NCBI RefSeq assembly: GCF_004795895.1
Contig: NZ_CP039250.1
Coordinates: forward strand, 1,922,001-1,986,000
DNA length: 64,000 bases
Direction: 5' to 3'
Source of the DNA: Sphingopyxis sp. PAMC25046
Lineage (GTDB): Bacteria; Pseudomonadota; Alphaproteobacteria; Sphingomonadales; Sphingomonadaceae
Shown: one piece after another, positions 3 to 13,109 of the stretch
How the letters are laid out: each line of letters starts with the position of its first letter
Numbering within the stretch: the stretch's first letter is position 1
The notes under the pieces: generated by a model
The model's input: only the letters and a program-made list of their open reading frames with translations
Databases searched by the model: none
Told to the model about the DNA's origin: nothing
Made by a program: the position numbers and the translations under genes

Positions 3-641
3 CACAAGGGCATCCACCTCTATGAAGTCGTCGTCACGGGGCGCGAGGCGCATTCGAGCCTGGTGCACGAGGGCGTGTCGGCGAACATGGTCGCGATCGA
101 CATATTGGGCGTGCTCGGACGCATCGCCGAAAGCGAGCGCGCCTATCACCGCGACGCGCGCTTCGATCCGCCTTGGTCGACGCTGACCGTGGGGACGATC
201 CGCGGCGGTACCGCGGCGAACATCCTGGCGCGCGAATGCCGCTTTACCTTCGACCTGCGCACGGTGCCTGACCGCGACGTCGGTGGCGTGCTCGCGCCCT
301 TCTGGGCAGCGATCGAGGAAGCGCGAGCGCGGCTGAAGGACGAGGGCGAGGAGACCGGCATTACGGTACGGACGATCGCCGAGGTCCCGCCGCTGCGCCG
401 CGAGGAGGAGGGCGCAGCCGAGCGGCTGGCCGCAATGCTGAGCGAGGCCGCGGCCCCGGCGGGCGCGGTATCCTATGGCGCCGAAGCCGGACAATTCCAG
501 ACGGCGGGCATGTCGACGGTGATCTGCGGCCCGGGTTCGATCGTCCAGGCGCATCGTCCCGACGAATATATCGAGATCGCGCAGATTGAGGCGGGCGCGC
601 GCTTCATGTCGAGGTTGATTGCGATGACCCATGCGGAGTAG
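3..641 (+). CDS. M20-family hydrolase, ArgE-like (5' partial)
   Basis: The gene is cut by the left edge of the window; its frame is open from base 3. About 212 residues are visible. They hold the M20 dimerisation (lid) domain, with TGREAHSS near the start, and the C-terminal part of the metal-binding domain, with EAGQF and CGPGSIVQAHRPDEYI, where the QAH histidine is the expected zinc ligand. These blocks match acetylornithine deacetylase/succinyl-diaminopimelate desuccinylase-type M20 enzymes, which remove an N-acyl group from an amino acid. The neighbouring catabolic genes argue for a scavenging deacylase rather than arginine synthesis; that is an inference. The catalytic N-terminal half lies outside the window. 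Confidence 0.85.
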   Translation, partial: HKGIHLYEVVVTGREAHSSLVHEGVSANMVAIDILGVLGRIAESERAYHRDARFDPPWSTLTVGTIRGGTAANILARECRFTFDLRTVPDRDVGGVLAPFWAAIEEARARLKDEGEETGITVRTIAEVPPLRREEEGAAERLAAMLSEAAAPAGAVSYGAEAGQFQTAGMSTVICGPGSIVQAHRPDEYIEIAQIEAGARFMSRLIAMTHAE

Positions 642-650
642 AGATCGGCG

Positions 651-1409
651 ATGCGCGCCGCCCGACCCAAATCCGAAAAATCCGCCGAGCCAGCGGAGGT
701 CCTCGACATAAGCGACGAGGTCGCCCGTCAGTCCTCGGGACAGAAGGTCTATGCCTTGCTGCGCGAGCAGATACTGAACCTCGACCTGCCGCCGAACACC
801 GAGCTGGACGAGGTTCAGTTCAGCCGCGAGCTCGGCTTTTCGCGCACACCGATCCGCGAGGCGCTGATCCGGCTGGCGTCCGACAGCCTGGTGGTGCTGG
901 CGCCGAACCGGGGCGCCCGCGTCGCGCCGCTCGACCTCGATCAGGTGCCGCAGGTGCTTGAGGCGCTCGAGCTTTATGAACGGGCGACCACGCGCTGGGC
1001 CGCCCTCCGCCGGCAGCCGCATCATCTCGACCTGCTCGAACAGCGCAACCGCGAGTTCGCCGCCGCGAGCGAAACGCGCGATCCGCGCCTGATCGTCGAG
1101 GCGAACTGGGCCTTTCACGATGCGATCAATCAGGCGTGCGGGAACAAGTTCCTAGCCGCCGACTGCTCGAAAATGCTGCGCGGCGTGATGCGCCTGTCGC
1201 TGCTCGCCTTTCGCCAGAACGGCGCGGCGCTGCTGAGCTATTCGGACGTCATCGACCAGCATAACCAGATGATCGATGCGATCAGCCGCGGCGATGCGAA
1301 CGAAGCCGAGCGGCTCGTCTACGAGCATTCGGACGAGTTTCGCGAGCGGATGAAGACCTTTGTCGCCGGTGCGAGCACCGCCGATTTCTTGCTGAACGGT
1401 CGCGGCTGA
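651..1409 (+). CDS. GntR-family (FCD) transcriptional regulator
   Basis: The 252-residue protein has an N-terminal winged helix-turn-helix (about residues 25-90; GFSRTPIREALIRLASD is the recognition region of the family) followed by an all-helical FCD ligand-binding domain (about 100-230). In the usual D-x3-H metal motif of FCD domains this protein reads NWAFH, so the aspartate appears replaced by asparagine. It starts 9 bases after the M20 gene and shares its strand. FCD regulators normally sense an organic acid or amino-acid metabolite and repress the adjacent catabolic genes; a matching inverted repeat lies in the divergent promoter at 6953-6975. Family assignment is firm, ligand unknown. 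Confidence 0.93.
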   Translation: MRAARPKSEKSAEPAEVLDISDEVARQSSGQKVYALLREQILNLDLPPNTELDEVQFSRELGFSRTPIREALIRLASDSLVVLAPNRGARVAPLDLDQVPQVLEALELYERATTRWAALRRQPHHLDLLEQRNREFAAASETRDPRLIVEANWAFHDAINQACGNKFLAADCSKMLRGVMRLSLLAFRQNGAALLSYSDVIDQHNQMIDAISRGDANEAERLVYEHSDEFRERMKTFVAGASTADFLLNGRG

Positions 1410-1425
1410 GCCGCGACCGCCAGCT

Positions 1426-2721
1426 TCAGTCCTCCAGATCCTCTGCAACTCTGCCGCTTGCGCGGTAGAAGAAGGCCGCGGTCGGCACGGTCAGCGCCAT
1501 GACGATGATGAGCGCATAGCGCAGCCCTTCGGGGCCGTGAATCGCACTGAAATGGTCGCTGAGCGCGCCGGTGATCACCGGCCCGAGCCCGAAGCCGAGC
1601 AGGTTGCCGAAGAAGAGAACGACTGCGATCGCTGTCGCTCGCCGGGCGCTGCCGCACACCGCATGGATTGCGGCGAAGGCGGCTGGCAGCGCGGCGTAGA
1701 GCAGGATACCCCCGATCGTGCTGACGACCAGAAAGGTCGGCAGGTCGTCGATCAGGAACATCGCACAATTGGGCAGCGTGGCGAGGCCGAAGGCGATGGC
1801 GGGAAAACGCACGATCCAGCGCGGATCGCGCCGCGACAGCGCATCCTGGATCGCGCCGCCGGCGAGGCTGCCGATGAGCACCCCGAGCGCCGATGTCGCG
1901 CCATAATAGAGGCCCGCCTGTTCGATCGGGCTTTCGATCACGCGCACGAGGTAGGAGGGCACGAAGACGAGCGAGCCATAGGCCGCGAAATGATAGAGGG
2001 TGAAGCCCGCGAGCATGAGCACGAACGACCGCTTTCCGACGAGGCGCTCGACCGAGGTACGGAAATCTTCCGTACTGGCGCGGGGCACCGCGGCATCGAC
2101 GCGCTGGCGCGGCTCGTCGAGCACCCACCAGACGAGCGCGGCGATCAACAACCCGGGCAGGCCGAACGCAACGAGCGTCGCGCGCCAGCCATGCGCGGCG
2201 ACGAGCTGCGACCCTGCAGAAAGGCCGATCAGATAGCCGACGGTTCCCGATGTCGCGAAGATGCCGATCGCGCGGGCGCGCTGCGCGGTCGGGAAATAAT
2301 CGACGATCAGCGACTGGGCGGGCGGGGTCGCGCCCGCTTCGCCCACACCGACACCGATACGCGCGAGCAGCAGCTGCCAGAAACTCGCCGCCGCAGCGCA
2401 CAGGACCGTCATCAGGCTCCATACCGAGATCGCGACGGCGATCAGTATCTTGCGGTTACCACGATCGGCGAAGCGCGCGATCGGCAGGCCGAACGCCGAA
2501 TAGAGCAGCGCGAAGGAGAGGCCGCTGAGCAGACCGAGTTGGGTGTCGGAGACCCCGAATTCCTGTTTGATCGGCTCGAGTAGCACCGAAATGACAACGC
2601 GGTCGATCGAGCTCGACGCGCCGACAAGGAAAAGGATCGCGAGGAAGGTCCAGCGGCGTGCCGGAGAATAGAGATGCGCCGCGCCGCCACCCCGTGCGGC
2701 GGGGGTGGGGGTGATGCTCAA
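1426..2721 (-). CDS. MFS transporter
   Basis: The 431-residue protein has the hydrophobic pattern of a 12-helix major facilitator superfamily permease. It begins a few residues in with an RRWTFLAILFLVGASSSIDR-type first helix and carries the loop 2-3 motif region after it (SGLSFALLYSAFGLPIARFADR). The chosen start is a TTG whose last bases overlap the stop of the upstream peptidase gene (TTGA overlap), which implies translational coupling; no ATG fits the N-terminus. It ends 16 bases from the convergent GntR gene. Its likely job is inner-membrane uptake of the compound brought in by the TonB receptor and processed by the S9 peptidase. Confidence 0.88.
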   Translation of the reverse strand: MSITPTPAARGGGAAHLYSPARRWTFLAILFLVGASSSIDRVVISVLLEPIKQEFGVSDTQLGLLSGLSFALLYSAFGLPIARFADRGNRKILIAVAISVWSLMTVLCAAAASFWQLLLARIGVGVGEAGATPPAQSLIVDYFPTAQRARAIGIFATSGTVGYLIGLSAGSQLVAAHGWRATLVAFGLPGLLIAALVWWVLDEPRQRVDAAVPRASTEDFRTSVERLVGKRSFVLMLAGFTLYHFAAYGSLVFVPSYLVRVIESPIEQAGLYYGATSALGVLIGSLAGGAIQDALSRRDPRWIVRFPAIAFGLATLPNCAMFLIDDLPTFLVVSTIGGILLYAALPAAFAAIHAVCGSARRATAIAVVLFFGNLLGFGLGPVITGALSDHFSAIHGPEGLRYALIIVMALTVPTAAFFYRASGRVAEDLED

Positions 2722-4712
2722 TTGCGATCTCGCCACTGTGCGAACCAGCGCAGCACGCGCGTCCCCTGATCGATCTGCGCTTCGTAGCGCGCAGCGGCGT
2801 GCCCCTCTTCGGGGTACAGCACCAGTTCGGTCGGTACGTCGGCAAGCACGAGCGCGTGGTGGAACTGGACCGCCTGCGCCGGCGGGGTGGTCTTGTCCAT
2901 CTCGCCCGCGATCAGCAACGTCGGTGTCGTCACCTTGTTCGCATGCGCCAGCGGGCTCCGCTGGTCGAAGGTGCCGCCGACATCGTACGGATCGCCTTCC
3001 GAATAGAGCGACAGGAATTCCGGATGGTGGGCGGTGAAATACTGGCTGCGCATATCGGTTAGCGGTGCGATCGCGCACGCCGCCTGAAAGCGGCCGGTCT
3101 GGCCGACGAGCCAGGTGGTCATGAAACCGCCGTAGCTGCCGCCGGTCACGAACAGCCGGCTGCCGTCGACCGGATGATTGGCGATCACATGGTCGATGCC
3201 GGCCAATATGTCGTGCACATCCTCGCCCGCCATGTCGCCGATGACGCGCGAGGCGAAATCGAGCCCGCGTCCCGAACTGCCGCGCGGATTGGGGAAGAGC
3301 ACGGCATAGCCCGAACCGACGAGCAGCGCGGCGAGCGGGTTGTCGAAGGTCCAGCTGTCGCGAAACAGGTGCGAGGGGCCACCGTGAATGAAAGCGACGA
3401 GCGGCGGACGTTCGACCCCTTGGGGCATCGCGAGATAGCCGAGTATGTCGAGCCCGTCGCGGCCCTGCCAGCGCACGACTTCGGCCGGTTTCATACGTGC
3501 CTGAACGGGCGCGAGATCGGGCGGGGTCAGATCGAGCAGCATCTGCTCGCCCGTGGCGGTCGAGCGCGCGAGATAGGGATAGCGATCGAAGGCGTGGCCG
3601 GGAACGAGGACGGCGTAGTCGCCTTCCGGGATCGCATAGGGCACTTTGCGCCCCGCGGTGCCCGAGGCGCGCCATTCAATCACGGTGGTATCGCTCGCGA
3701 TATCGAGCGTCCCCGCGACCGACCCCGGTGCGGCGAAGCCCGCGAAGAAGAGGCGGTTCGCATCGCGCCAGGCGAGCGCCGAGACCTGTGCGCCTATATC
3801 GGGCTCGCGCGCCGCGCCGGTCGCGCGGTCGTAGAGGATGAGCGAACCGAGCTGCACCGTGCGGTGGAAGCGTCCCTCGATCGCCGCGATCGTCTTGCCG
3901 TCGGGCGCGGCGGTTACGCCTGCTATCTCAACCTCCGGCGCGGCGAAGCGTTCGAACGCGCCGCCCGCCGCGGGGGCGATCGCGATTTCGGTTTGATACC
4001 ATCCGCCTTCTGTCGGGCTGGCCGAGGTGATCGCGACGACTGCGTCGGGACCGCACCAGTCGGCTTCCCAGACATTTTGGCCATCGGCGCCGACACGCTG
4101 GAGCGCCCCGCTTTCGACGTCGAGAATGTGCGCGCGGCGCCACAGGCCGTCATGGCCGCCGGTTTCGACGGTCGGCATCCATGAGGGGCGTTCGCCGCCA
4201 TCGCCGCCGCCGATGCGTGCGGTCGCCGCCGACCCGGCAGCATCGGCACCGGCGTCGGCGCTCTGGAGCAGAATTCTGCCGCTGTCGGCTGCCCAGACGA
4301 AGCTTTCCACTGCCTCGCCGGCGATCGGTGCGGGCGCGGTGGCGCGATCGAGGGCATCGGCCGATGCGATCATCAACTGGAAATTGCCTGCGCCATGATC
4401 GCGGTCGGACAGGAAGGCGAGCCGGCGGCCGTCGGGTGACCATTTCGGCTGGCTGTCGTTCGCTGCGTCGCTGCCCAGCAGGGTCACCGCGCCGTCGGGG
4501 GCGAGCAGGCCGATGCGGGAGACCGGGAAGCCGCCGCTGGCGCGCATCATCGGACCCGAAAAGGCGATCATGCCGTTTGTCGGATTTGCCGCGACATGGA
4601 CGATGCCATGGAATTGCGCCGCGCCGGGGCGATAGACGCGCTCGAAATAATCGCGGACCTGCGCTTCGATGGCGTTGGCGGAGGAGGGGAGATCGCAATC
4701 CGGGGAAGGCAC
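2718..4712 (-). CDS. S9-family peptidase (prolyl oligopeptidase / acylaminoacyl-peptidase type)
   Basis: The 664-residue protein has an N-terminal beta-propeller of WD/PD40-like repeats (for example SPDGRRLAFLSDRD) over about 60-400 and a C-terminal alpha/beta-hydrolase domain. The nucleophile elbow is GGSYGG, the acid lies in AGEMDKTTPP and the histidine in EEGHAA. No signal peptide is seen at the chosen start, so it is probably cytoplasmic. I chose a GTG with an AAAGG seven bases upstream. A TTG that overlaps the stop of the TonB gene would place the terminator hairpin at 4734-4755 inside the gene. The family releases amino acids or acyl-amino acids from short peptides, fitting a role in opening an imported peptide-like substrate. 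Confidence 0.88.
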   Translation of the reverse strand: MPSPDCDLPSSANAIEAQVRDYFERVYRPGAAQFHGIVHVAANPTNGMIAFSGPMMRASGGFPVSRIGLLAPDGAVTLLGSDAANDSQPKWSPDGRRLAFLSDRDHGAGNFQLMIASADALDRATAPAPIAGEAVESFVWAADSGRILLQSADAGADAAGSAATARIGGGDGGERPSWMPTVETGGHDGLWRRAHILDVESGALQRVGADGQNVWEADWCGPDAVVAITSASPTEGGWYQTEIAIAPAAGGAFERFAAPEVEIAGVTAAPDGKTIAAIEGRFHRTVQLGSLILYDRATGAAREPDIGAQVSALAWRDANRLFFAGFAAPGSVAGTLDIASDTTVIEWRASGTAGRKVPYAIPEGDYAVLVPGHAFDRYPYLARSTATGEQMLLDLTPPDLAPVQARMKPAEVVRWQGRDGLDILGYLAMPQGVERPPLVAFIHGGPSHLFRDSWTFDNPLAALLVGSGYAVLFPNPRGSSGRGLDFASRVIGDMAGEDVHDILAGIDHVIANHPVDGSRLFVTGGSYGGFMTTWLVGQTGRFQAACAIAPLTDMRSQYFTAHHPEFLSLYSEGDPYDVGGTFDQRSPLAHANKVTTPTLLIAGEMDKTTPPAQAVQFHHALVLADVPTELVLYPEEGHAAARYEAQIDQGTRVLRWFAQWRDRN

Positions 4713-4733
4713 GGGCAAACCTTTGAAAAGGCG

Positions 4734-4755
4734 GGGGCCGGATCGCTCCGGCCCC
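4734..4755 (-). terminator. Hairpin after the TonB receptor gene
   Basis: A perfect 9-bp stem (GGGGCCGGA / TCCGGCCCC) with a 4-base loop lies just after the TonB receptor stop and is followed, in the leftward direction, by CGCCTTTTC. This looks like a Rho-independent or attenuating hairpin that would lower expression of the downstream peptidase and MFS genes relative to the receptor. Confidence 0.6.
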
Positions 4756-4765
4756 TGCAAGAGAC

Positions 4766-6892
4766 TCAATAACGGAATTCAAACTGCAGGCCCACCGTGC
4801 GCGGGCGCATGCGATATTCCTGGCTGATGTCCGTCGGGGGCTGGGTGATGCCGTTCCAGTTGCCGATATTCTCGACATAGAGCGACGCGGTCCAGTTGTC
4901 GGGCGATTCGAGCCCGATACTGCCGCGCGCGAGCAAGGGGTCGTCGCTGACGAAATAGCGCGCCGCGCCTGCGGCGAGCAGGCGCGCCGGAATCTTCGAG
5001 CGATAGGTCAGCGAGCCCGAGAGCACGCCCTTCAATCCCGCCTGCCCGACCGGGAAGCGATAATCGAGGAAGCCGCTCGCCGTATATTCGGGAGAGAAGG
5101 CGAGCCGGTCGCCCTTGTTGTAGAGCGTGACGGGTCCGGCAGCGGTCTGCGTCACGATCGGGCCGGCAAGGTCGAGACCGTTCCAGCTGAACGTGCCGCC
5201 GATATCGAGCCCCTCGAGCGGGTGCGCGGTCAGCGCGAGGTCGGCGCCGAAGCCGCTCGCTTTCGGCCCGTTCACCGACGCGGCGAACACGACGCCGTCG
5301 ATATCGACGTTCAGATTCTGCTGAATATCCTTCCAGTCGATATAATAGAGCGCGGCATCGAAGGTCAGTCCGCCGTCGAGCAGGCTACCCTTCGCGCCGA
5401 TTTCGTAGTTCGACAGGCGGTCGGCCTTGACCGGCGGAATGCCGGGCGCGCTGCGGATGATCGTCGGGCTCTGGTTGAAGCCGCTGCGAAAACCCTGCGA
5501 ATAGGAGGCATAGGCGGTGAATTTGCGGCTCGGCAGCCAGGTGATCACCGCGCGCGGGGTGACCGCGTCGAAGGTGTCGGTGCGGCGCGCGAGCGGCTGG
5601 GCCGGATTGCCCGTGGTCGGGGTGACCTCGATCTGGGTCACGCGGTCCTTGAAGTAGCGCAGGCCGCCGGTGACTTCGAGCGTGCCCTCCATGAAGCTGC
5701 GCGTGACTTCGCCGAACGCCGCGAACGAGCGCGACTTGTCCTGGAAGTTGATCGGTGCGGGAAGCACGAACAAGGTCTGGTTCAGAAGGTCGGACGCGTC
5801 GCGATAGAAGCCGCCGACCGACCAGCGCCAGTCGCCGCCACCGGTCGAATTGATCAGCAGCTCCTCGGTGAAGATCTTCGAGCTGATTTCGGTGTGGAGC
5901 GTCTGGTTCGCGGCGAGATTGGTATAGTCGCGCTCGCTGAGGTTGGTGAATTTGAGATAGCTCGTCGCGCTCGACACTTCGAAGGCGCCGAAGTCGTAGC
6001 CGAGTTTGGCGCTGAACGCGTCATAATTGAGCTTTTGCGGCAGGGGGACGGTGGTGAGCTGGTTGCCGTCGTCATTGGCATAGGCGGGTGCGTCCTGATC
6101 GATGCGCGAGATCCACGCCGACAGGCCGAAGCTGAATTCGTCGGTCGGCTGGCCGTTGAGCTTGACGCGCACGTTGCGCGAGCGCGTGTCGTTGGCGTTT
6201 TTGATGCCGCGCGCGGGCTGGTCGATCCAGCCGCCGGCGCTTTCGAAGCCGCCGACGATGCGGAGGCCAAGCTTGTCCTCGACGAGCGGGATGTTGACGG
6301 CCATGTCGCCGCGATAGCTCTGGTCGCCGCCCTCGGTCGCGGCGACGCCGGCGCGTGCCTTGAATTCGAAGCGGTCGAGATTTGCATCGTTGGTGAGGAC
6401 GCGCACGACGCCGTTCAGCGCGTTGGCGCCGTAGAGCGTACCCTGCGGCCCGCGCAGCACTTCGATCCGCGACATGTCATAGGCGTTGGTGTCGGGCAGG
6501 ATCGCCGACTTGACAAGGCCGAAGGGGACCGAATCGATATAGAAGGCCGACGTGCTCGATCCCGCGAGCGTCGCGCCGTTCGCGGCGACGCCGCGGATCG
6601 TGAGCTGCGTCCCGCCGCCCTGCGGCGAGTTGGTGATCGAGATGCCGGCGACCGAACGCAAAGCTTCGGAGACGCCGCCGCTGGCCTGCGCGTCGAGTTC
6701 CTTTCCGCCGAGCGAGGTGATCGAGATCGGCACGTCCTGGAGCCGTTCCTCACGCTTTTGCGCGGTGACGACGATTTCGTTCGCGCTCCCGGCGCCCGCG
6801 TCTTCGTCCGCCGTCTGCGCGGTGGCGGGCGCCGTCCACAGCAGCGCGGCGAGAACGCCAAGGCCCGATCCAGTCTTCAGCTTGCTACGCAT
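4766..6892 (-). CDS. TonB-dependent receptor
   Basis: The 708-residue outer-membrane protein starts with a signal peptide ending near TAPATAQ, then the TonB-box/plug region (EIVVTAQKREERLQDVPISI) typical of the large sphingomonad receptor families. The plug runs to about residue 160 with RIEVLRGPQGTLYG, and a 22-strand barrel follows, ending in the aromatic FEFRY. It is the first gene of a leftward operon with the S9 peptidase and MFS permease and is divergent from the thioesterase/SDR/BKACE/aconitase X operon. This placement suggests uptake of the substrate of the cluster, not a siderophore. The substrate cannot be read from the sequence. Confidence 0.95.
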   Translation of the reverse strand: MRSKLKTGSGLGVLAALLWTAPATAQTADEDAGAGSANEIVVTAQKREERLQDVPISITSLGGKELDAQASGGVSEALRSVAGISITNSPQGGGTQLTIRGVAANGATLAGSSTSAFYIDSVPFGLVKSAILPDTNAYDMSRIEVLRGPQGTLYGANALNGVVRVLTNDANLDRFEFKARAGVAATEGGDQSYRGDMAVNIPLVEDKLGLRIVGGFESAGGWIDQPARGIKNANDTRSRNVRVKLNGQPTDEFSFGLSAWISRIDQDAPAYANDDGNQLTTVPLPQKLNYDAFSAKLGYDFGAFEVSSATSYLKFTNLSERDYTNLAANQTLHTEISSKIFTEELLINSTGGGDWRWSVGGFYRDASDLLNQTLFVLPAPINFQDKSRSFAAFGEVTRSFMEGTLEVTGGLRYFKDRVTQIEVTPTTGNPAQPLARRTDTFDAVTPRAVITWLPSRKFTAYASYSQGFRSGFNQSPTIIRSAPGIPPVKADRLSNYEIGAKGSLLDGGLTFDAALYYIDWKDIQQNLNVDIDGVVFAASVNGPKASGFGADLALTAHPLEGLDIGGTFSWNGLDLAGPIVTQTAAGPVTLYNKGDRLAFSPEYTASGFLDYRFPVGQAGLKGVLSGSLTYRSKIPARLLAAGAARYFVSDDPLLARGSIGLESPDNWTASLYVENIGNWNGITQPPTDISQEYRMRPRTVGLQFEFRY

Positions 6893-6952
6893 AATGTCCC
6901 CTTTTGCACGTTTTATGGATTGTGACGAGAGTGCGAATACCCAATGAACACA

Positions 6953-6975
6953 TTGTGTATAATCTGTGTAGACAA
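6953..6975. promoter_or_regulatory. Inverted-repeat operator candidate in the divergent promoter
   Basis: Arms TTGTGTA and TAGACAA (6 of 7 positions pair) are separated by nine bases, in an AT-rich stretch between the divergent TonB receptor and thioesterase genes. TTGT..ACAA ends are characteristic of sites for GntR/FCD regulators. The nearby GntR gene is the obvious candidate to bind here and control both operons; this is an inference. Confidence 0.5.
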
Positions 6976-7025
6976 GTCAAGCGCGGGCGATTAGTCCGAT
7001 GCCATCGGCAACGGAAAGGTGCGAC

Positions 7026-7487
7026 ATGGAACAAGAAATCACCGTAGAATCAGTGGGAAGCGCTCCCGTCGAAACCTTTCGCGGAGTCGTCTTTCCGTGG
7101 CATTGCGACGCGATGGGGCACATGTCGGTGCAGCATCAGATGCCGCTTCTCGACAATGCCGTCTATCATCTGCTCGGCTTTTTCGGCCCCGTCGCGGCCG
7201 AGGTCGATGGCCGCCGCGCAGGCTGGGCCGATGTCTCGCACGAAATTCGCTATCTCGACGAAATGACCGCGGGCGACCTGCTCGTCCTTTCGAGCGGCAT
7301 CCTGTCGGTCGGGCGTTCGTCGATCCGGCACCGGACCATCCTGTCGCGGCGCCCCGATGCGACGGCCTGCACGATCATGGAGGGCGTCACCGCCCGCTTC
7401 GACCTCTGCGCGCGCAAAGCGACGCCGCTGTCCGATCGCGAACGCGCGATAGCCGAGCGGCTGATGCTGCCGGCCGAAACAAACTGA
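7026..7487 (+). CDS. Acyl-CoA thioesterase, hotdog fold (4HBT-like)
   Basis: The 153-residue protein has the hotdog signature FPWHCDAMGH followed by the long helix (MPLLDNAVYHLLGFF). The Asp in HCDAMGH is the usual catalytic acid of 4-hydroxybenzoyl-CoA-type thioesterases. The ATG is set by a GGAAAGG six bases upstream. It is the first gene of the rightward operon and is followed by an SDR and a BKACE. In carnitine degradation a betainyl-CoA thioesterase of this fold acts right after the BKACE, so a parallel role, hydrolysing the acyl-CoA made by the BKACE here, is plausible. The real substrate is unknown. Confidence 0.83.
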   Translation: MEQEITVESVGSAPVETFRGVVFPWHCDAMGHMSVQHQMPLLDNAVYHLLGFFGPVAAEVDGRRAGWADVSHEIRYLDEMTAGDLLVLSSGILSVGRSSIRHRTILSRRPDATACTIMEGVTARFDLCARKATPLSDRERAIAERLMLPAETN

Positions 7488-7504
7488 ACCAGAGGGAGAC
7501 TTTA

Positions 7505-8263
7505 ATGCAACGAGTGCTGGTAACCGGTGCGGGCGACAGCGTCGGCCGAGCGATCGCCGAGCGTTTCCTGCAAAAGGGCGCGAAGGTGCATATCTGCGAC
7601 GTGCGCGGCGATGCCGTCGCGGCGACGCTGGCGGCCAATCCGGGAATGAGCGGCAGCGTCACCGACGTCGGCGTGCGCGCCGAGGTCGACGCGCTGTTCG
7701 ACGATGTCCGCGCGCAGGTCGGCGACCTGTCCATCCTGGTCAACGTCGTCGGCATGGCGGGCCCGCGTGCGCCGATCGAGGATATCGACGAGGATGAATG
7801 GGATAAGACGATCGCGGTCAACCTGTCGGGTATGTTCTATACGATGAAGCGCGCCGTCCCGATGCTGAAGGCGAACGGCGGCGGGTCGATCGTCAATTTT
7901 TCGACCTGTTCGACGCGAACCGGCATTCCGTTCCGCGCGCCCTATATCGCGTCGAAGGCGGGGGTCGAAGGGCTGACGAAGAACAGCGCGCGCGAGCTGG
8001 GTCCGTCGGGAATCCGTGTCAACGCAATCCTGCCCGGCATCATCAACAACGACCGCTTCCGCTTCATCGTCCAGCGCAACGTCGACGCGACGGGCCGCAG
8101 CTTCGAGGATATCGAGAACGACTATCTCAAATATGTGTCGCTGCGCTGCAAGGTCGAACTCTCCGAGTTCGCGGACATGGTCGAATTCATCACCTCGGAC
8201 GCCGGCAAGAAGATCACCGGCGAGATCATCGCCGTCAGTGGCAACATGGAATGGGAAGAATGA
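7505..8263 (+). CDS. SDR-family NAD(P)-dependent oxidoreductase
   Basis: The 252-residue protein has a Rossmann start (VTGAGDSVGRA), the NVVG motif in place of the usual NNAG, a Ser in NFSTCSTRTG and the catalytic YIASK (Y-x3-K). These make it a classical short-chain dehydrogenase. AGGGAGA precedes the ATG. The gene lies directly before the BKACE gene (2-base gap). The simplest reading is oxidation of a beta-hydroxy acid to the beta-keto acid that BKACE cleaves. It is not related to the L-carnitine dehydrogenase family, so the substrate is probably not carnitine itself. Confidence 0.9.
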   Translation: MQRVLVTGAGDSVGRAIAERFLQKGAKVHICDVRGDAVAATLAANPGMSGSVTDVGVRAEVDALFDDVRAQVGDLSILVNVVGMAGPRAPIEDIDEDEWDKTIAVNLSGMFYTMKRAVPMLKANGGGSIVNFSTCSTRTGIPFRAPYIASKAGVEGLTKNSARELGPSGIRVNAILPGIINNDRFRFIVQRNVDATGRSFEDIENDYLKYVSLRCKVELSEFADMVEFITSDAGKKITGEIIAVSGNMEWEE

Positions 8264-8265
8264 CG

Positions 8266-9165
8266 ATGAACCAGAAAACGATCCTGACCTGCGCGGTCAC
8301 CGGCGGCGCCCCCTATAACAAGAAGCATCCGTCGATGCCGGTCACCCCGAAGCAGATTGCCGACGCGTGCATCGAGGCGGCGTCGGCGGGGGCGAGCATC
8401 GTCCACATCCACGTCCGCGATCCCGAGACGGGTGAGGGTAATCGCGACCGCGCTCATTTCCGCGAAGTCGTCGACCGCGTCCGCCAGACCGGCACCGACA
8501 TTGTGCTCAACCTGACGTGCGGCATGGGCGCCTATTTCCTGCCCGATCCCGAGCGCGAAGGGCATATGCTGCCGGGCAGCGACGTCGTCGGCGTCGACGA
8601 GCGCGTCGCGCATGTCGAGGAACTGCTGCCCGAGATCGCAACGCTCGACATCGTTACGAACAATCAGGTCGAGGGCCCGACCGAATATATCTATTTCAGC
8701 CCGACGCACACGCTGCGCGCGATGGCTAAACGGTTTCAGGCGGCAGGGGTGAAGCCCGAACTCGAAGTGTTCGGCCCCGGCGACATATTGTTCGGCAACA
8801 AGCTGGTCGAGGAAGGGCTGATCGATGGGCCGCCGATGATGCAGATGGTGCTCGGCGTGCAATGGGCGGCGCCGCACGGCGTCGAGACGATCCTGTATCA
8901 GAAGGGCCTGATGGCGCCCGGTACGATCTGGGGCGCTTTCGGTATCGGGCGCGAACAGATGCCGATGCTCGCGCACACGCTGCTGCTCGGGGGCAACATC
9001 CGCGTCGGGCTGGAGGATAATCTCTATATGTCGCGCGGCGTCTGGGCGACCAACGGCCAACTCGTCGAACGCGCCTATACGCTCGTGAACGCCGTCGGCG
9101 GCTATGAGGTCGCGACGCCCGCCGAGACGCGCGAGATGTTGAAGCTCAGAACACCGGGCGCATGA
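8266..9165 (+). CDS. Beta-keto acid cleavage enzyme (BKACE, DUF849)
   Basis: The 299-residue TIM-barrel protein begins TILTCAVTGGAPYNKKHPSMP and has the metal-binding pair in HIHVRDPETG plus GLEDNLYMSRG near the C-terminus, both hallmarks of the 3-keto-5-aminohexanoate cleavage family. These enzymes condense a beta-keto acid with acetyl-CoA, releasing acetoacetate and a new acyl-CoA; family members act on lysine-fermentation intermediates, dehydrocarnitine and other keto acids. The gene follows the SDR and overlaps the next gene by ATGA. It is the key clue that a beta-keto acid arises in this pathway. The specificity subgroup cannot be set by eye. Confidence 0.93.
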   Translation: MNQKTILTCAVTGGAPYNKKHPSMPVTPKQIADACIEAASAGASIVHIHVRDPETGEGNRDRAHFREVVDRVRQTGTDIVLNLTCGMGAYFLPDPEREGHMLPGSDVVGVDERVAHVEELLPEIATLDIVTNNQVEGPTEYIYFSPTHTLRAMAKRFQAAGVKPELEVFGPGDILFGNKLVEEGLIDGPPMMQMVLGVQWAAPHGVETILYQKGLMAPGTIWGAFGIGREQMPMLAHTLLLGGNIRVGLEDNLYMSRGVWATNGQLVERAYTLVNAVGGYEVATPAETREMLKLRTPGA

Positions 9166-10103
9166 CCGGGACGGCCGCAACAATCCCTTGGTACGATGCA
9201 GGAGCGGTCGCGCGGGCAACGCCGATGCCCGCGCTGATCGCTGCGTTGCAGCACGCTTTCGCTTCGGACGAATATCACGCACCACCGCGGCTCGCCGCCG
9301 ATATGGGCGGGGCGTCGCTGCTCGTCATGCCGGCGTGGAAAGGAAGCGAACGGATCGGCACGAAGATCGTCATGGTCGATCCGCGCGCGCGTCCTTCGAT
9401 CCAGTCGACATATATCCTGTGCGACCGCGCGTCGGGCCGGCCGGTCGCTGCGATCGATGGTGCTGCGCTCACGCGGCGCCGCACCGCGGCGGCTTCGGTT
9501 CTTGCCGCATCGCGGCTTGCGCGGCCGGCGTCGGCCATCTTGTTCGTCCTCGGGACCGGCGCGCTCAACGCGCCGATCATCGAAGCCTATGCCTCCGCTT
9601 TCGCGTTGAAACGGGTTCTGGTCTGGGGCCGCGATGCGGCCAAGGCAGAGGCGGCGGCGCGCGCGGCGCGCGCGCAGGGATATCCTGCGGAAGCGGTTGC
9701 GACGGTCGAGGCGGGATTGGCGGTAGCGGATATCGTGTCGGCTGCGACGCTCGCGGCCGAACCGCTGATCGCGGGAGCGAAGCTGCGGCCCGGTATGCAC
9801 ATCGACCTGATCGGCGCCTTCCGGCCCGACATGTGTGAGGCCGATGCCGAGGCGTTCGCTCGTGCGCGCGTTTTCGTCGATACCCGCAAAGGCGCGATGG
9901 AAGAGGCGGGAGACCTGCTGCAGGCGATCGCCGCGGGTGCAGTCGGCGCGGGTGCAATCGAAGCCGATCTTGCGGCGCTCTGTTCCGGCGTACATCCGGG
10001 CCGCGCGGGCGATGAAAAGTCGATCACTCTGTTCAAATCGGTCGGTACCGCGATCGAGGACCTGGTGGCGGCCGAACTCGTCGTGCGGGATGTCGCGCCG
10101 TGA
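9162..10103 (+). CDS. Ornithine cyclodeaminase-family protein, probable 1-pyrroline-2-carboxylate reductase
   Basis: The 313-residue protein belongs to the ornithine cyclodeaminase/mu-crystallin family. GTKIVMVDPRA carries the substrate-binding lysine, and LGTGALNAPIIEAY is the nucleotide-binding turn. Family members are ornithine cyclodeaminases, alanine dehydrogenases or delta1-pyrroline-2-carboxylate reductases. Immediate coupling (GTGA overlap) to aconitase X, whose bacterial form dehydrates cis-3-hydroxy-L-proline to that pyrroline, favours the reductase role, giving L-proline. Motifs support the family; the exact reaction is inferred from context. Confidence 0.85.
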   Translation: MTGTAATIPWYDAGAVARATPMPALIAALQHAFASDEYHAPPRLAADMGGASLLVMPAWKGSERIGTKIVMVDPRARPSIQSTYILCDRASGRPVAAIDGAALTRRRTAAASVLAASRLARPASAILFVLGTGALNAPIIEAYASAFALKRVLVWGRDAAKAEAAARAARAQGYPAEAVATVEAGLAVADIVSAATLAAEPLIAGAKLRPGMHIDLIGAFRPDMCEADAEAFARARVFVDTRKGAMEEAGDLLQAIAAGAVGAGAIEADLAALCSGVHPGRAGDEKSITLFKSVGTAIEDLVAAELVVRDVAP

Positions 10104-11332
10104 AGCTCGAACCGATCGACCATGCCCTGCTGGCGGGCGAGCATGGCGCGGCAGCCGCGCGCGCCATGGCGCTTCTCGTCCGTTACGGCACCGCCTGCGG
10201 CGCCGAGCATTTTATCCCGATCGAGTCCGCGCATATCGACGGATGCCTCTATCATGGGCCATCGAGCATCGATTTCGCCCGGCGCTTCGTGGATCTGGGC
10301 GGCCAGGTGCGCGTGCCGACCACGCTCAATGTCGCGGCGGTCGATGTCACGCACCCTGGTTGGCATTGCGGCCCGCCGGAGATCGTCGCGGAGCAGGAGA
10401 CGCTGACGCACCTGCACGAACAACTCGGTTGTCTGCCGACGCTGACCTGCGCGCCCTATCAGCGCATGGCGCGTCCGCGGCGCGGCGAACATGTCGCCTG
10501 GGCCGAATCCAATGCGATCGTCTTCATCAATTCGGTACTCGGCGCGCGCACCGACCGCTATGGCGATTTCACCGACCTCTGCGCCGCGCTGACGGGGCGC
10601 GTCCCGCTGGCGGGCCTGCACCGCGACGCGGCGCGGCGGCCCGCGGTCGTTTTCGAGCTTCCGTCGATCGAGGCCACGGGGTTGCCGCGCGATCTCTATT
10701 TTGCCGCGGTCGGCTATGTCTTCGGCCGGCGCGCGCCGGGGATCGTTCCCTATTTGCGCGGCTTGCCGATCGATGCGAGCGAGGACGAGTTGAAGGCGCT
10801 CGGCGCGACGGGGGCGTCGTCGGGCGCGCTCGCGCTGTTCCATGCCGAGGGGGTGACGCCCGAGGCCGCGGACATGCCGACGCGAGGGGTTCCGGTCGAA
10901 ACCGTGTCGCCGGTGGAGGTCGAAGCCGCGATCGCCTCGCTCTGCCGCGCGGCCCAGGGCGAGGCGGTCGCGGCCGTCTGCCTCGGTACGCCGCACTATT
11001 CGATCCAAGAATTCGCCTTGCTCAATCGGGCGGTCGACGGGCGCCGCCGGTCGGCGGCAACCGAAATCTTTGTGTCGACGTCGCGCGAGATCGCGGCCCT
11101 GATCGCAGGCGACCCGGCGTTCGACGCCTTGCGCGCCTTTGGCATCAATATCGTCGTCGACACCTGCACCTATCTGGCGCCGGTCGTCCGTGAGACATCG
11201 GGGCTGATCCTGACGACATCCGGCAAATATGCGCATTACGGTCCCGGCAATCTTGGGCGCCGCGTCGCGCTGATGACGCTCGAGCGTTGCGTCCGGTCGG
11301 CCGAGACGGGGAAGGTGGCGGCACCATGCTGA
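10100..11332 (+). CDS. Aconitase X, large catalytic subunit
   Basis: The 410-residue protein matches the AcnX catalytic domain (formerly DUF521). RYGTACGAEHFIPIESAHIDG, the SNAIVFINSVLGARTDRYGD block and the DTCTYLAP segment are its conserved regions, and Cys residues in LTCAP, CLGTPH and DTCTY are candidate iron-sulfur ligands. The GTG start overlaps the previous stop, and its 3' end overlaps the small subunit. Bacterial two-subunit AcnX is known as cis-3-hydroxy-L-proline dehydratase, and the coupled reductase gene supports this. Mevalonate-5-phosphate dehydratase is the archaeal alternative and is unlikely here. Confidence 0.9.
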   Translation: MKLEPIDHALLAGEHGAAAARAMALLVRYGTACGAEHFIPIESAHIDGCLYHGPSSIDFARRFVDLGGQVRVPTTLNVAAVDVTHPGWHCGPPEIVAEQETLTHLHEQLGCLPTLTCAPYQRMARPRRGEHVAWAESNAIVFINSVLGARTDRYGDFTDLCAALTGRVPLAGLHRDAARRPAVVFELPSIEATGLPRDLYFAAVGYVFGRRAPGIVPYLRGLPIDASEDELKALGATGASSGALALFHAEGVTPEAADMPTRGVPVETVSPVEVEAAIASLCRAAQGEAVAAVCLGTPHYSIQEFALLNRAVDGRRRSAATEIFVSTSREIAALIAGDPAFDALRAFGINIVVDTCTYLAPVVRETSGLILTTSGKYAHYGPGNLGRRVALMTLERCVRSAETGKVAAPC

Positions 11333-11772
11333 TCCGTGGACACGCATCGATCGAGGGGATGGCGAGCGGGACGCTATTGAAGCTCTCCGATCCGCTGAGC
11401 CTTTGGGGCGGAGTCGATCTGCACACCGGCCGAATCGTCGATGCCTCCCACCCGCAGCGGGGCGCCATACTCGCCGATCAACTGCTGGCGATGCCGGGCA
11501 GCCGGGGATCTTCCTCGTCATCGAGTGCGCTGGTCGAACTTGCCCGCGCGAAGCGCGCGCCGGCCGGCGTGATCACCACGCGCGCCGACCCGATCCTAAC
11601 GATCGGCGCCTTGGTTGCCGACGACCTCTACGGCACGATTATTCCCATCCTGATCATATCCGAAGACGATTTCGCAAGTCTGACGTGCGGCGCGACCGGG
11701 CATCTTTGGTGCGAAACCGATCGTTCTGTGCTTACGTTTCCGGGTCACGAACCGATGCGGTTTTACAGCTAG
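11326..11772 (+). CDS. Aconitase X, small (swivel) subunit
   Basis: The 148-residue protein matches the AcnX small domain (formerly DUF126). It has WGGVDLHTGRIVDASHPQRG, the serine-rich MPGSRGSSSSSSAL loop that binds the substrate carboxylate, and a beta-rich C-terminus. The ATG lies inside the end of the large-subunit gene (7-base overlap), so the subunits are translationally coupled. It is the last gene of the rightward operon. Confidence 0.9.
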   Translation: MLIRGHASIEGMASGTLLKLSDPLSLWGGVDLHTGRIVDASHPQRGAILADQLLAMPGSRGSSSSSSALVELARAKRAPAGVITTRADPILTIGALVADDLYGTIIPILIISEDDFASLTCGATGHLWCETDRSVLTFPGHEPMRFYS

Positions 11773-12080: not shown

Positions 12081-13109
12081 ATGGAGAAGATTGCAACAGT
12101 CGGGTTGGATATCGCGAAGTCGGTGTTTCAGGTCCACGGCGTTGATGCTGCAGGCGAAGTCGTGGTGCGCAAGCGCCTGAGCCGGGCGCGGGTTGTTCCA
12201 TTCTTTGCGAAGCTGCCGCGGTGCCTGGTCGGTATCGAGGCTTGCAGTACATCGCATCATTGGGCCCGTGAGCTGATCGCGTTGGGGCATGATGTTCGGC
12301 TGATGCCGGCGCAATATGTGAAGCCGTACGTGAAGCGCGGCAAGAATGATGCTTCCGATGCCGAGGCGATCTGCGAGGCGGTGACGCGGCCAACGATGCG
12401 GTTCGTCGCAGTAAAGACCCCGGAGCAGCAGAGCGTGATGATGCTTCACCGGGTCCGCCTGATGCTCAACCGCCAGCGCACTCAGCTGTCGAACGCGACG
12501 CGGGCGCATATGTCGGAGTTTGGGATCGTGGCGCCGGTAGGTCGCATTGGGTTCGACCGCCTGCTGGCGATAGTCGCCGACAAAGATGACGAGAGCATCC
12601 CACCCGATGCCCGGCTCTGCCTGGAGATGCTCGGGGCGCAGCTCGCCATCGTGAAGGAACAGATCCTCGAGAACGACCGGAGCATCCGGGCGAGTGCGCG
12701 CGATACGGAAGTCGGGCGGCGGCTGATGGAGATTCCCGGCGTCGGCCCGCTGCTTGCGAGCGCCTTCGTCGCCAGCGTCGCTGATCCCCAGGTATTTAAG
12801 ACAGGCCGTGACCTTGCTGCATGGATCGGCCTGGTCCCCCGACAGAACTCCAGCGGCGGGAAGGAGCGGCTCGGCGGCATATCGCGTGCGGGCAACCAAT
12901 ATCTGCGCCAGATGCTCGTTGTTGGGGCGATGGCGGTAATCCGTCACGCAGAACGACACGGGACCAAGCGGGTCTGGCTTATCGAGCTGATGAAGAGGCG
13001 CGCCACGAAGGTCGCGGCCGTCGCGCTCGCGAACAAGACCGCGCGCATGGTCTGGGCCCTGATGACGAGCGGCGAGCACTACCGCGAACCGCAGGTCGCG
13101 CACGCATAG
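12081..13109 (+). CDS. IS110-family transposase (DEDD recombinase)
   Basis: The 342-residue protein appears intact. The RuvC-like N-terminal domain holds the acidic residues in GLDIAKSVFQVHG, VGIEACSTSHHWA and KNDASDAEAICEA. The C-terminal Tnp domain has the helix-hairpin-helix IPGVGPLLASA and the serine-containing GLVPRQNSSGGKERLGGIS. This enzyme family uses the RuvC acidic residues and the C-terminal serine with a bridge RNA to recombine donor and target. The ATG is preceded by AGGAGAG. The gene has no frameshift, so the element may still be mobile. Confidence 0.95.
   Translation: MEKIATVGLDIAKSVFQVHGVDAAGEVVVRKRLSRARVVPFFAKLPRCLVGIEACSTSHHWARELIALGHDVRLMPAQYVKPYVKRGKNDASDAEAICEAVTRPTMRFVAVKTPEQQSVMMLHRVRLMLNRQRTQLSNATRAHMSEFGIVAPVGRIGFDRLLAIVADKDDESIPPDARLCLEMLGAQLAIVKEQILENDRSIRASARDTEVGRRLMEIPGVGPLLASAFVASVADPQVFKTGRDLAAWIGLVPRQNSSGGKERLGGISRAGNQYLRQMLVVGAMAVIRHAERHGTKRVWLIELMKRRATKVAAVALANKTARMVWALMTSGEHYREPQVAHA

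Follow-up and report, generated by a model that had tools for sequence, protein, structure and literature searches.

A conserved sphingomonad gene cluster couples a BKACE module to an AcnX module and may lead from a 3-hydroxyproline-based residue to proline

Two described catabolic routes stand closest to the locus examined here. The degradation of cis-3-hydroxy-L-proline relies on LhpI, an AcnX of type I, together with a pyrroline-2-carboxylate reductase; the degradation of carnitine relies on a beta-keto acid cleavage enzyme (BKACE) for dehydrocarnitine and on a betainyl-CoA thioesterase. Elements of both meet in Sphingopyxis sp. PAMC25046, whose 4.5 Mb genome is a single contig. The window – a stretch of 64,000 nucleotides of that contig (NZ_CP039250.1; G000:C1:1922001-1986000) – carries at positions 3-11772 a divergent cluster of 11 genes. 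Like the first route the cluster combines the two domains of AcnX, catalytic and swivel, with an OCD-family reductase; like the second it has a dehydrogenase, a BKACE and a hotdog thioesterase. A preliminary description of this DNA had listed these genes and their orientations, and every one was confirmed from the list of open reading frames (ORFs) and from Pfam and NCBIfam matches. We propose, with moderate confidence, that the cluster is one uptake and degradation regulon under GntR control, at whose core a linear pathway would convert a 3-hydroxyproline-based residue to proline.

The case for a single unit begins with the distribution of the genes. A pattern-based scan of a genome contig collection with the window BKACE returned 77 loci, and tblastn of all 11 proteins followed. 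The full 11-gene set, in the same order, occurs at four further Sphingopyxis loci (L004-L007) and in Sphingomonas sp. Root720 (L008), while Sphingomonas colocasiae (L014) holds 10 of the 11, the OCD gene being absent and AcnX lying directly after the BKACE. The BKACEs of these six genomes are 92-98% identical to that of the window, and gene order is identical in all seven loci, the window included. Flanking ORFs of at least 100 amino acids, compared at the six loci over some 1-1.7 kb of upstream and 7-8 kb of downstream DNA, and in the window genome on the upstream side only, are mostly not common to the seven: the flanks vary while the gene set is constant. A PF00756 esterase does lie upstream of the M20 hydrolase gene in three of the seven (the window genome, L005 and L008), and one flanking TonB paralogue in L008 matches the cluster receptor. 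A TauD-family dioxygenase (PF02668) stands just upstream of the M20 gene at L004:3-878, the sole TauD match among the seven upstream genes scanned.

The same pairing is rare elsewhere. No window-like AcnX was found in the 71 other BKACE loci, for which the flanks examined reached at most 10 kb on either side and were often shorter, although a distant AcnX (30% identity) lies about 6 kb from a BKACE of 44% identity in L033. Within the genus, AcnX of the window kind (E <= 1e-30) occurs in 8 of 80 genomes, five of which have an adjacent BKACE and three of which have none within roughly 20 kb; four of the five are, by their identity pattern, probably L004-L007, and the total is accordingly counted as seven genomes. 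The host genome itself contains a single PF04412 AcnX match and, at E <= 0.001, a single match to the window BKACE. More broadly, AcnX (PF04412 over cut-off) is present in 13 of 296 genomes of the order; at 1e-60, 22 of 385 genomes of the class have a window-like AcnX, the best besides the window's own being 50% identical. As a control for co-occurrence, AcnX stretches were taken from all 21 other class genomes and, of the 12 other genomes of the order above the cut-off, from 5; none of these 26 stretches held a BKACE at 1e-6. Because of this, AcnX plus BKACE is an exception, particular to seven genomes among those examined: the cluster is patchily distributed yet kept together. The joint conservation of the two halves, on which the preliminary description had staked its inference, holds in all seven genomes with this BKACE, and with it goes one shared promoter element.

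That element lies between the TonB receptor and thioesterase genes as a block of 36 bases (6945-6980), a putative divergent promoter/operator in which 34 positions are invariant across the seven loci; the DNA around it varies, chiefly between the Sphingopyxis and Sphingomonas loci. Inside the block, at 6948-6960, is the near-palindrome ACACATTGTGTAT, with the motif form ACACA(A/T)T(G/T)TGTAT. Within one mismatch this motif – derived from the very sites to which it is matched – occurs once in the window. Upstream of the M20-GntR gene pair all seven loci have a similar element, ATACAA..TGTAT, which varies slightly between them; a TTGACT box (TTGACC in L007) precedes it by a few bases, and in the window genome the element stands at L002:16304 with one mismatch to the motif. 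In all seven loci the sites of both promoter regions depart from the motif by no more than one mismatch. The shared near-palindrome suggests that both promoter regions belong to one regulon, and it reads as a putative operator for the GntR/FCD regulator encoded at 651..1409 on the plus strand.

The BKACE half is encoded on the plus strand by genes for a hotdog thioesterase (4HBT_2; 6999..7487, start at 6999 or 7026), an SDR dehydrogenase (7505..8263) and the BKACE (8251..9165, start at 8251 or 8260). The last matches PF05853 at 1.9e-85, and its alignment contains HIHVRD and RVGLEDN, which we take to be the HxH and ED metal-site motifs of BKACE. A tree of 110 BKACE sequences, from which repeats of the window (L001, L003, L110, L137) and matches shorter than 780 bases (L046, L078, L079 and partial copies in L111-L114) were left out, places the seven cluster proteins in one clade (100/100). 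This clade falls within a group of 20 rows (98/86) comprising 7 AcnX-linked, 5 Hyu-linked and 3 SDR-only rows, 2 labelled carnitine-type and 3 others. A sister group of 15 rows (99/94), joined to it at 95/92, has a carnitine dehydrogenase gene nearby in 14 of 15: 12 carry a carnitine-type dehydrogenase no more than 1.5 kb away; in L149 and L150, labelled 'other' since neighbour labels were set by BLAST distance, the annotated carnitine 3-dehydrogenase lies just beyond that limit, at about 1.6 kb. In the 20-row group itself, L151 (Paracoccus versutus) has its BKACE between a separate thioesterase gene and a gene that bears the annotation 3-hydroxyacyl-CoA dehydrogenase NAD-binding, presumably of the same fold as carnitine dehydrogenase. 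Since dehydrocarnitine belongs to the beta-keto-gamma-ammonium acids, kinship to carnitine-linked BKACEs suggests a substrate of that class for the window enzyme.

The thioesterase matches PF13279 at 2.8e-9, and its sole NCBIfam match (2.9e-5) is to the C-terminal region of carnitine 3-dehydrogenase; it is 27% identical (7e-13) to the thioesterase of L151, with which it shares a WHCDxxGH motif, and it gave no match to solved structures up to E 0.1. The SDR has the features TGAGDSVG and YIASK and an Asp after beta-2, which by general rule we take to mark an NAD-type enzyme. The carnitine-like logic proposed in the preliminary description is thus carried by the BKACE tree and, weakly, by the thioesterase. 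Carnitine itself we reject as the substrate: no carnitine dehydrogenase stands beside the BKACE, which lies outside the carnitine-linked group. No carnitine-dehydrogenase match was found in the window-type clusters L004-L008 and L014, in a search that covered the clusters only.

Pairs of SDR and BKACE recur together with HyuA and HyuB in L121 (Cupriavidus pinatubonensis plasmid p2), L009, L029, L204, L205, L207 and L208; L009 also has a thioesterase and L208 a short, weak thioesterase match. In L121, the sole cluster scored, HyuA/HyuB are caprolactamase-like at 541 and 249 bits, both under the 1000-bit cut-offs. These clusters may represent a lactam route with BKACE as its last step, and a lactam hydrolase ahead of SDR and BKACE would fit a gamma-amino acid substrate. 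A ketone carboxylation route that includes the SDR-BKACE pair was rejected, since HyuA/HyuB are absent from the window cluster though present in some sister clusters; moreover, the L121 Hyu protein scores higher as a caprolactamase (541 bits) than as an acetophenone carboxylase (299 bits), both under cut-off. A beta-hydroxy fatty-acyl substrate was rejected as well: an acyl-CoA ligase and beta-oxidation would be expected to act on it, and by Pfam the 11 cluster proteins include no ligase. The L121 cluster also has a gamma-carbonic-anhydrase annotation. Among other relatives, a BKACE 57% identical to that of the window adjoins a nonribosomal peptide synthetase (NRPS)/type I polyketide synthase (PKS) gene in Sinorhizobium mexicanum (L148; NZ_CP041240.1, 224709-225611), with similar BKACEs on two other Sinorhizobium plasmids (H3, H4). 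Another, also 57% identical, lies in L012 near genes that by eye alone resemble LeuC/LeuD-type aconitase-family genes and an M24-type protein.

The second half of the operon follows on the same strand: a probable pyrroline-2-carboxylate reductase of the OCD/mu-crystallin family (9162..10103), the AcnX large subunit (10100..11332) and the AcnX small, or swivel, subunit (11326..11772). The large subunit matches the catalytic domain PF04412 at 3e-118 and the small subunit the swivel domain PF01989 at 9e-22. Among solved structures the large subunit matches the cis-3-hydroxy-L-proline dehydratase 7CNQ (8e-82) over 7CNR, which we take to be an archaeal AcnX, by 279 to 189 bits. The OCD protein scores 315.7 bits, against a cut-off of 322, with the pyrroline/piperideine-2-carboxylate reductase model PRK06141; related OCDs, scored as the pieces spanned by BLAST, reach 316.6 (L004), 313.1 (L008), 307.4 (L118) and 321.1 (L120). 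An AcnX alignment shows shared motifs. In a tree of 41 AcnX rows, the window AcnX and those of the three genus members that lack a neighbouring BKACE fall in a ten-row clade (100/100), within which the BKACE-linked rows form one clade at 83/65 only. The three BKACE-less stretches carry, respectively, S9, M24, S58 and OCD (L120); M24, M2, a PF00756 esterase and TonB, with an OCD about 9 kb away (L118); and TonB and OCD, the remaining frames resembling those of L118 by eye (L119). To judge from this gene content they are peptide degradation loci with a proline flavour. Family scores and these peptidase-rich relatives thus favour the assignment of AcnX and OCD to 3-hydroxyproline made in the preliminary description; the equivalog score for AcnX, given below, does not.

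The remaining genes would supply uptake and hydrolysis. The minus strand encodes an MFS permease (1426..2700, start codon unsettled), a peptidase of the S9 prolyl-oligopeptidase family (2718..4769) and a TonB-dependent receptor (4766..6892). The S9 peptidase retains the motifs GGSYGG, GExD and EEGHA in all seven orthologues, and no signal peptide is evident in it by eye. The M20 (ArgE-like) N-acyl amino acid hydrolase is encoded on the plus strand, with its 3' part at 3..641; the gene crosses the window edge, starting near G000:C1:1921445, and with its upstream part included spans L002:16445-17641. At full length the protein exceeds the NCBIfam acetylornithine-deacetylase cut-offs (487 vs 412 bits, and 427 vs 297.7 bits for TIGR01892). 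Cluster genes are mostly contiguous or overlapping. An apparent IS110-type transposase gene comes next after the cluster (12081-13109, read from the ORF without a family search). Transposase- or integrase-like genes lie near other AcnX clusters too, at L002:11361-11990, L119:7803-8432 and L007:1-718, the last alone having been checked by Pfam. Those of L002 and L119 agree in their N-terminal sequence, and in L119 a gap of about 150 bases separates the end of the frame from the AcnX small subunit gene.

How might these activities fit together? The product of a BKACE is an acyl-CoA, and a dedicated thioesterase as the operon's first gene implies, as in carnitine breakdown, that the free acid is wanted; AcnX of the window kind should, we assume, need a free beta-hydroxy amino acid. 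The simplest substrate that would serve both halves is 3-hydroxyproline extended by an acetate unit bearing a beta-hydroxyl, and it is for this reason that we favour a single linear chain. The TonB receptor and MFS permease would import a peptide- or acyl-linked compound, from which the S9 and M20 hydrolases would release a beta-hydroxy-gamma-amino acid in which the gamma-amino carbon is part of a 3-hydroxyproline skeleton. These two would remove amide-linked partners, and the PF00756 esterase beside M20 in three of the seven loci could serve ester-linked ones. The released acid may be 3-hydroxy-3-(3-hydroxypyrrolidin-2-yl)propanoate (detoxinine) or a close analogue, for instance its piperidine form. 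Its side-chain hydroxyl would be oxidized by the SDR to a beta-keto acid, which the BKACE, with acetyl-CoA, would cleave to acetoacetate and 3-hydroxyprolyl-CoA; the thioesterase would free 3-hydroxyproline, AcnX would dehydrate it to pyrroline-2-carboxylate and the OCD enzyme would reduce this to proline. So drawn, the scheme would be redox-balanced, the SDR making and the OCD enzyme using NAD(P)H, with proline and acetoacetate as end products. The host genome contains a Pro_dh domain in a frame of 1059 residues and a CoA-transferase pair, and proline dehydrogenase and CoA-transferase could complete the breakdown. The computations show gene content and order, conservation, the shared promoter element, family kinship and the presence of the Pro_dh and CoA-transferase domains; every catalytic step, together with regulation, substrate and stereochemistry, we infer.

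Detoxinine, which we take to be just such an extended 3-hydroxyproline residue and to occur in detoxins and rimosamides, would have the side-chain layout N-C-C(OH)-C-COOH, the same as carnitine. We suggest tentatively that the cluster is a dedicated pathway for detoxinine-type residues of detoxin- or rimosamide-like depsipeptides, and a new role for BKACE on proline-derived acids of the statine type. The SDR, BKACE and thioesterase would then clip off the two-carbon extension added by the producer's PKS module – a catabolic mirror of NRPS-PKS assembly.

Several observations weigh against the linear pathway and its substrate. AcnX reaches 369 bits against a cut-off of 700 in the NCBIfam equivalog for cis-3-hydroxyproline dehydratase (LhpI), a score for the large subunit only, the small domain being a separate gene. 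More distant heterodimeric AcnX occur beside a class II aldolase (L153) and a PLP (pyridoxal phosphate) enzyme of D-serine-dehydratase type (L178), so that AcnX alone is no proof of 3-hydroxyproline. The L153 stretch (Pseudomonas sp. MPC6 plasmid) further holds an SDR and an NAD(P)-dependent oxidoreductase, with no annotated hydroxyproline enzyme in the part shown; at L178:5772-8685 AcnX directly adjoins the PLP enzyme (PF01168/PF14031). One of the seven clusters, that of S. colocasiae, lacks the OCD gene, though two more distant OCDs (43% and 36%) are encoded at other places in the same genome. The nearest kin of the cluster BKACEs are not the carnitine group itself but L121, with SDR and HyuA/HyuB, and L011/L012 (a Lysobacteraceae metagenome-assembled genome and Peristeroidobacter soli), where SDR, Hyu and carnitine dehydrogenase were not found near the BKACE and thioesterase matches are weak (8e-6 and 2e-6). 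The active-site motif is DIVTNNQ in all seven window-type proteins and DITTGNQ in L009, L013, L081, L082 and L121, unlike the DCGTxNF of the carnitine group (9 of 11 rows shown). At the position of Kce Glu14, a residue with an amine role, the window BKACE has Ala and the carnitine-linked rows shown have Gly. The window thioesterase does not match the fused carnitine domain significantly by BLAST (best 0.07), and its L014 orthologue has no NCBIfam match at 1e-5. The 8 Hyu-linked rows are spread over the BKACE tree, with 6 changes, and we know of no assayed function among the SDR-BKACE-Hyu relatives.

The alternative that survives best is a widened form of the one drawn in the preliminary description, in which an imported peptide or acyl compound has two parts, a 3-hydroxyproline residue and, distinct from it, a beta-hydroxy acid that is perhaps of statine type, with AcnX/OCD taking the one and SDR, BKACE and thioesterase the other. 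A common promoter element and conservation as a unit suit this division too; the M20 protein passes the N-acyl-amino-acid hydrolase model, and either module is found elsewhere without the other. It demands, however, two unusual residues in one compound, and a simple beta-hydroxy fatty acid would need neither BKACE nor thioesterase. The thioesterase step is best explained if the free acid feeds AcnX, and the linear pathway is the more economical because the product of BKACE and thioesterase is itself the AcnX substrate; we regard the split as the less probable reading.

Two unrelated catabolic modules might instead share a regulon and an importer, for example one for 3-hydroxyproline peptides and one for an independent carnitine-like compound. 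The three genus members with AcnX, OCD and peptidases but no BKACE, and the 26 other AcnX stretches likewise without one, would agree with this. It appears improbable, given that all seven BKACEs of the >=92% clade adjoin AcnX/OCD or AcnX, that the genes are mostly contiguous or overlapping under one shared promoter element, and that flanks differ between loci while the gene set stays. That AcnX acts on some other beta-hydroxy amino acid freed by BKACE and thioesterase, with the OCD enzyme reducing the imine to a different amino acid, we consider very unlikely, for despite the company kept by the distant heterodimeric AcnX and the slight shortfall of the OCD protein against its model, that protein attains 315.7 of the 322 bits for a pyrroline/piperideine-2-carboxylate reductase and the nearest AcnX stretches hold proline-type peptidases.

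Returning to the linear pathway, it would, if correct, give a reason for the presence of thioesterase, BKACE and AcnX in one operon, and would mean that carnitine-like and proline-peptide catabolic modules have merged into one sphingomonad pathway. It would define a specific five-enzyme route and offer a means of predicting, from sequence, degraders of statine-type natural products.

Set beside known systems, the cluster differs from each in a particular way. The SDR-BKACE-HyuA/HyuB clusters of Cupriavidus, Sphingobium, Robiginitomaculum and some members of the order have SDRs 43-57% and BKACEs 41-67% identical to those of the window; they carry Hyu, window-like AcnX/OCD was not found in their examined stretches, and their rows are scattered on the tree. 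The BKACE of solved structure 3C6C (451 bits to the window protein and about 66% identical by eye) looks, over the stretch compared, the same as the L121 protein; its gene context (strain HN-2, L121) has HyuAB and no AcnX, unlike the window. The fused LhpI of L154 stands beside a 4-hydroxyproline epimerase, a trans-3-hydroxyproline dehydratase and an ABC transporter, again unlike the window. An annotated BKACE, 26% identical to the window's, lies on the other strand of that Sinorhizobium medicae plasmid about 4 kb from the LhpI/hydroxyproline cluster (L154:11032-11889). Compared with cis-3-hydroxy-L-proline degradation, the window has its AcnX split into two subunits and tied to BKACE, SDR and thioesterase and to a TonB/MFS importer; compared with carnitine degradation, it has an SDR in place of carnitine 3-dehydrogenase, and the BKACE module is joined to AcnX and OCD.

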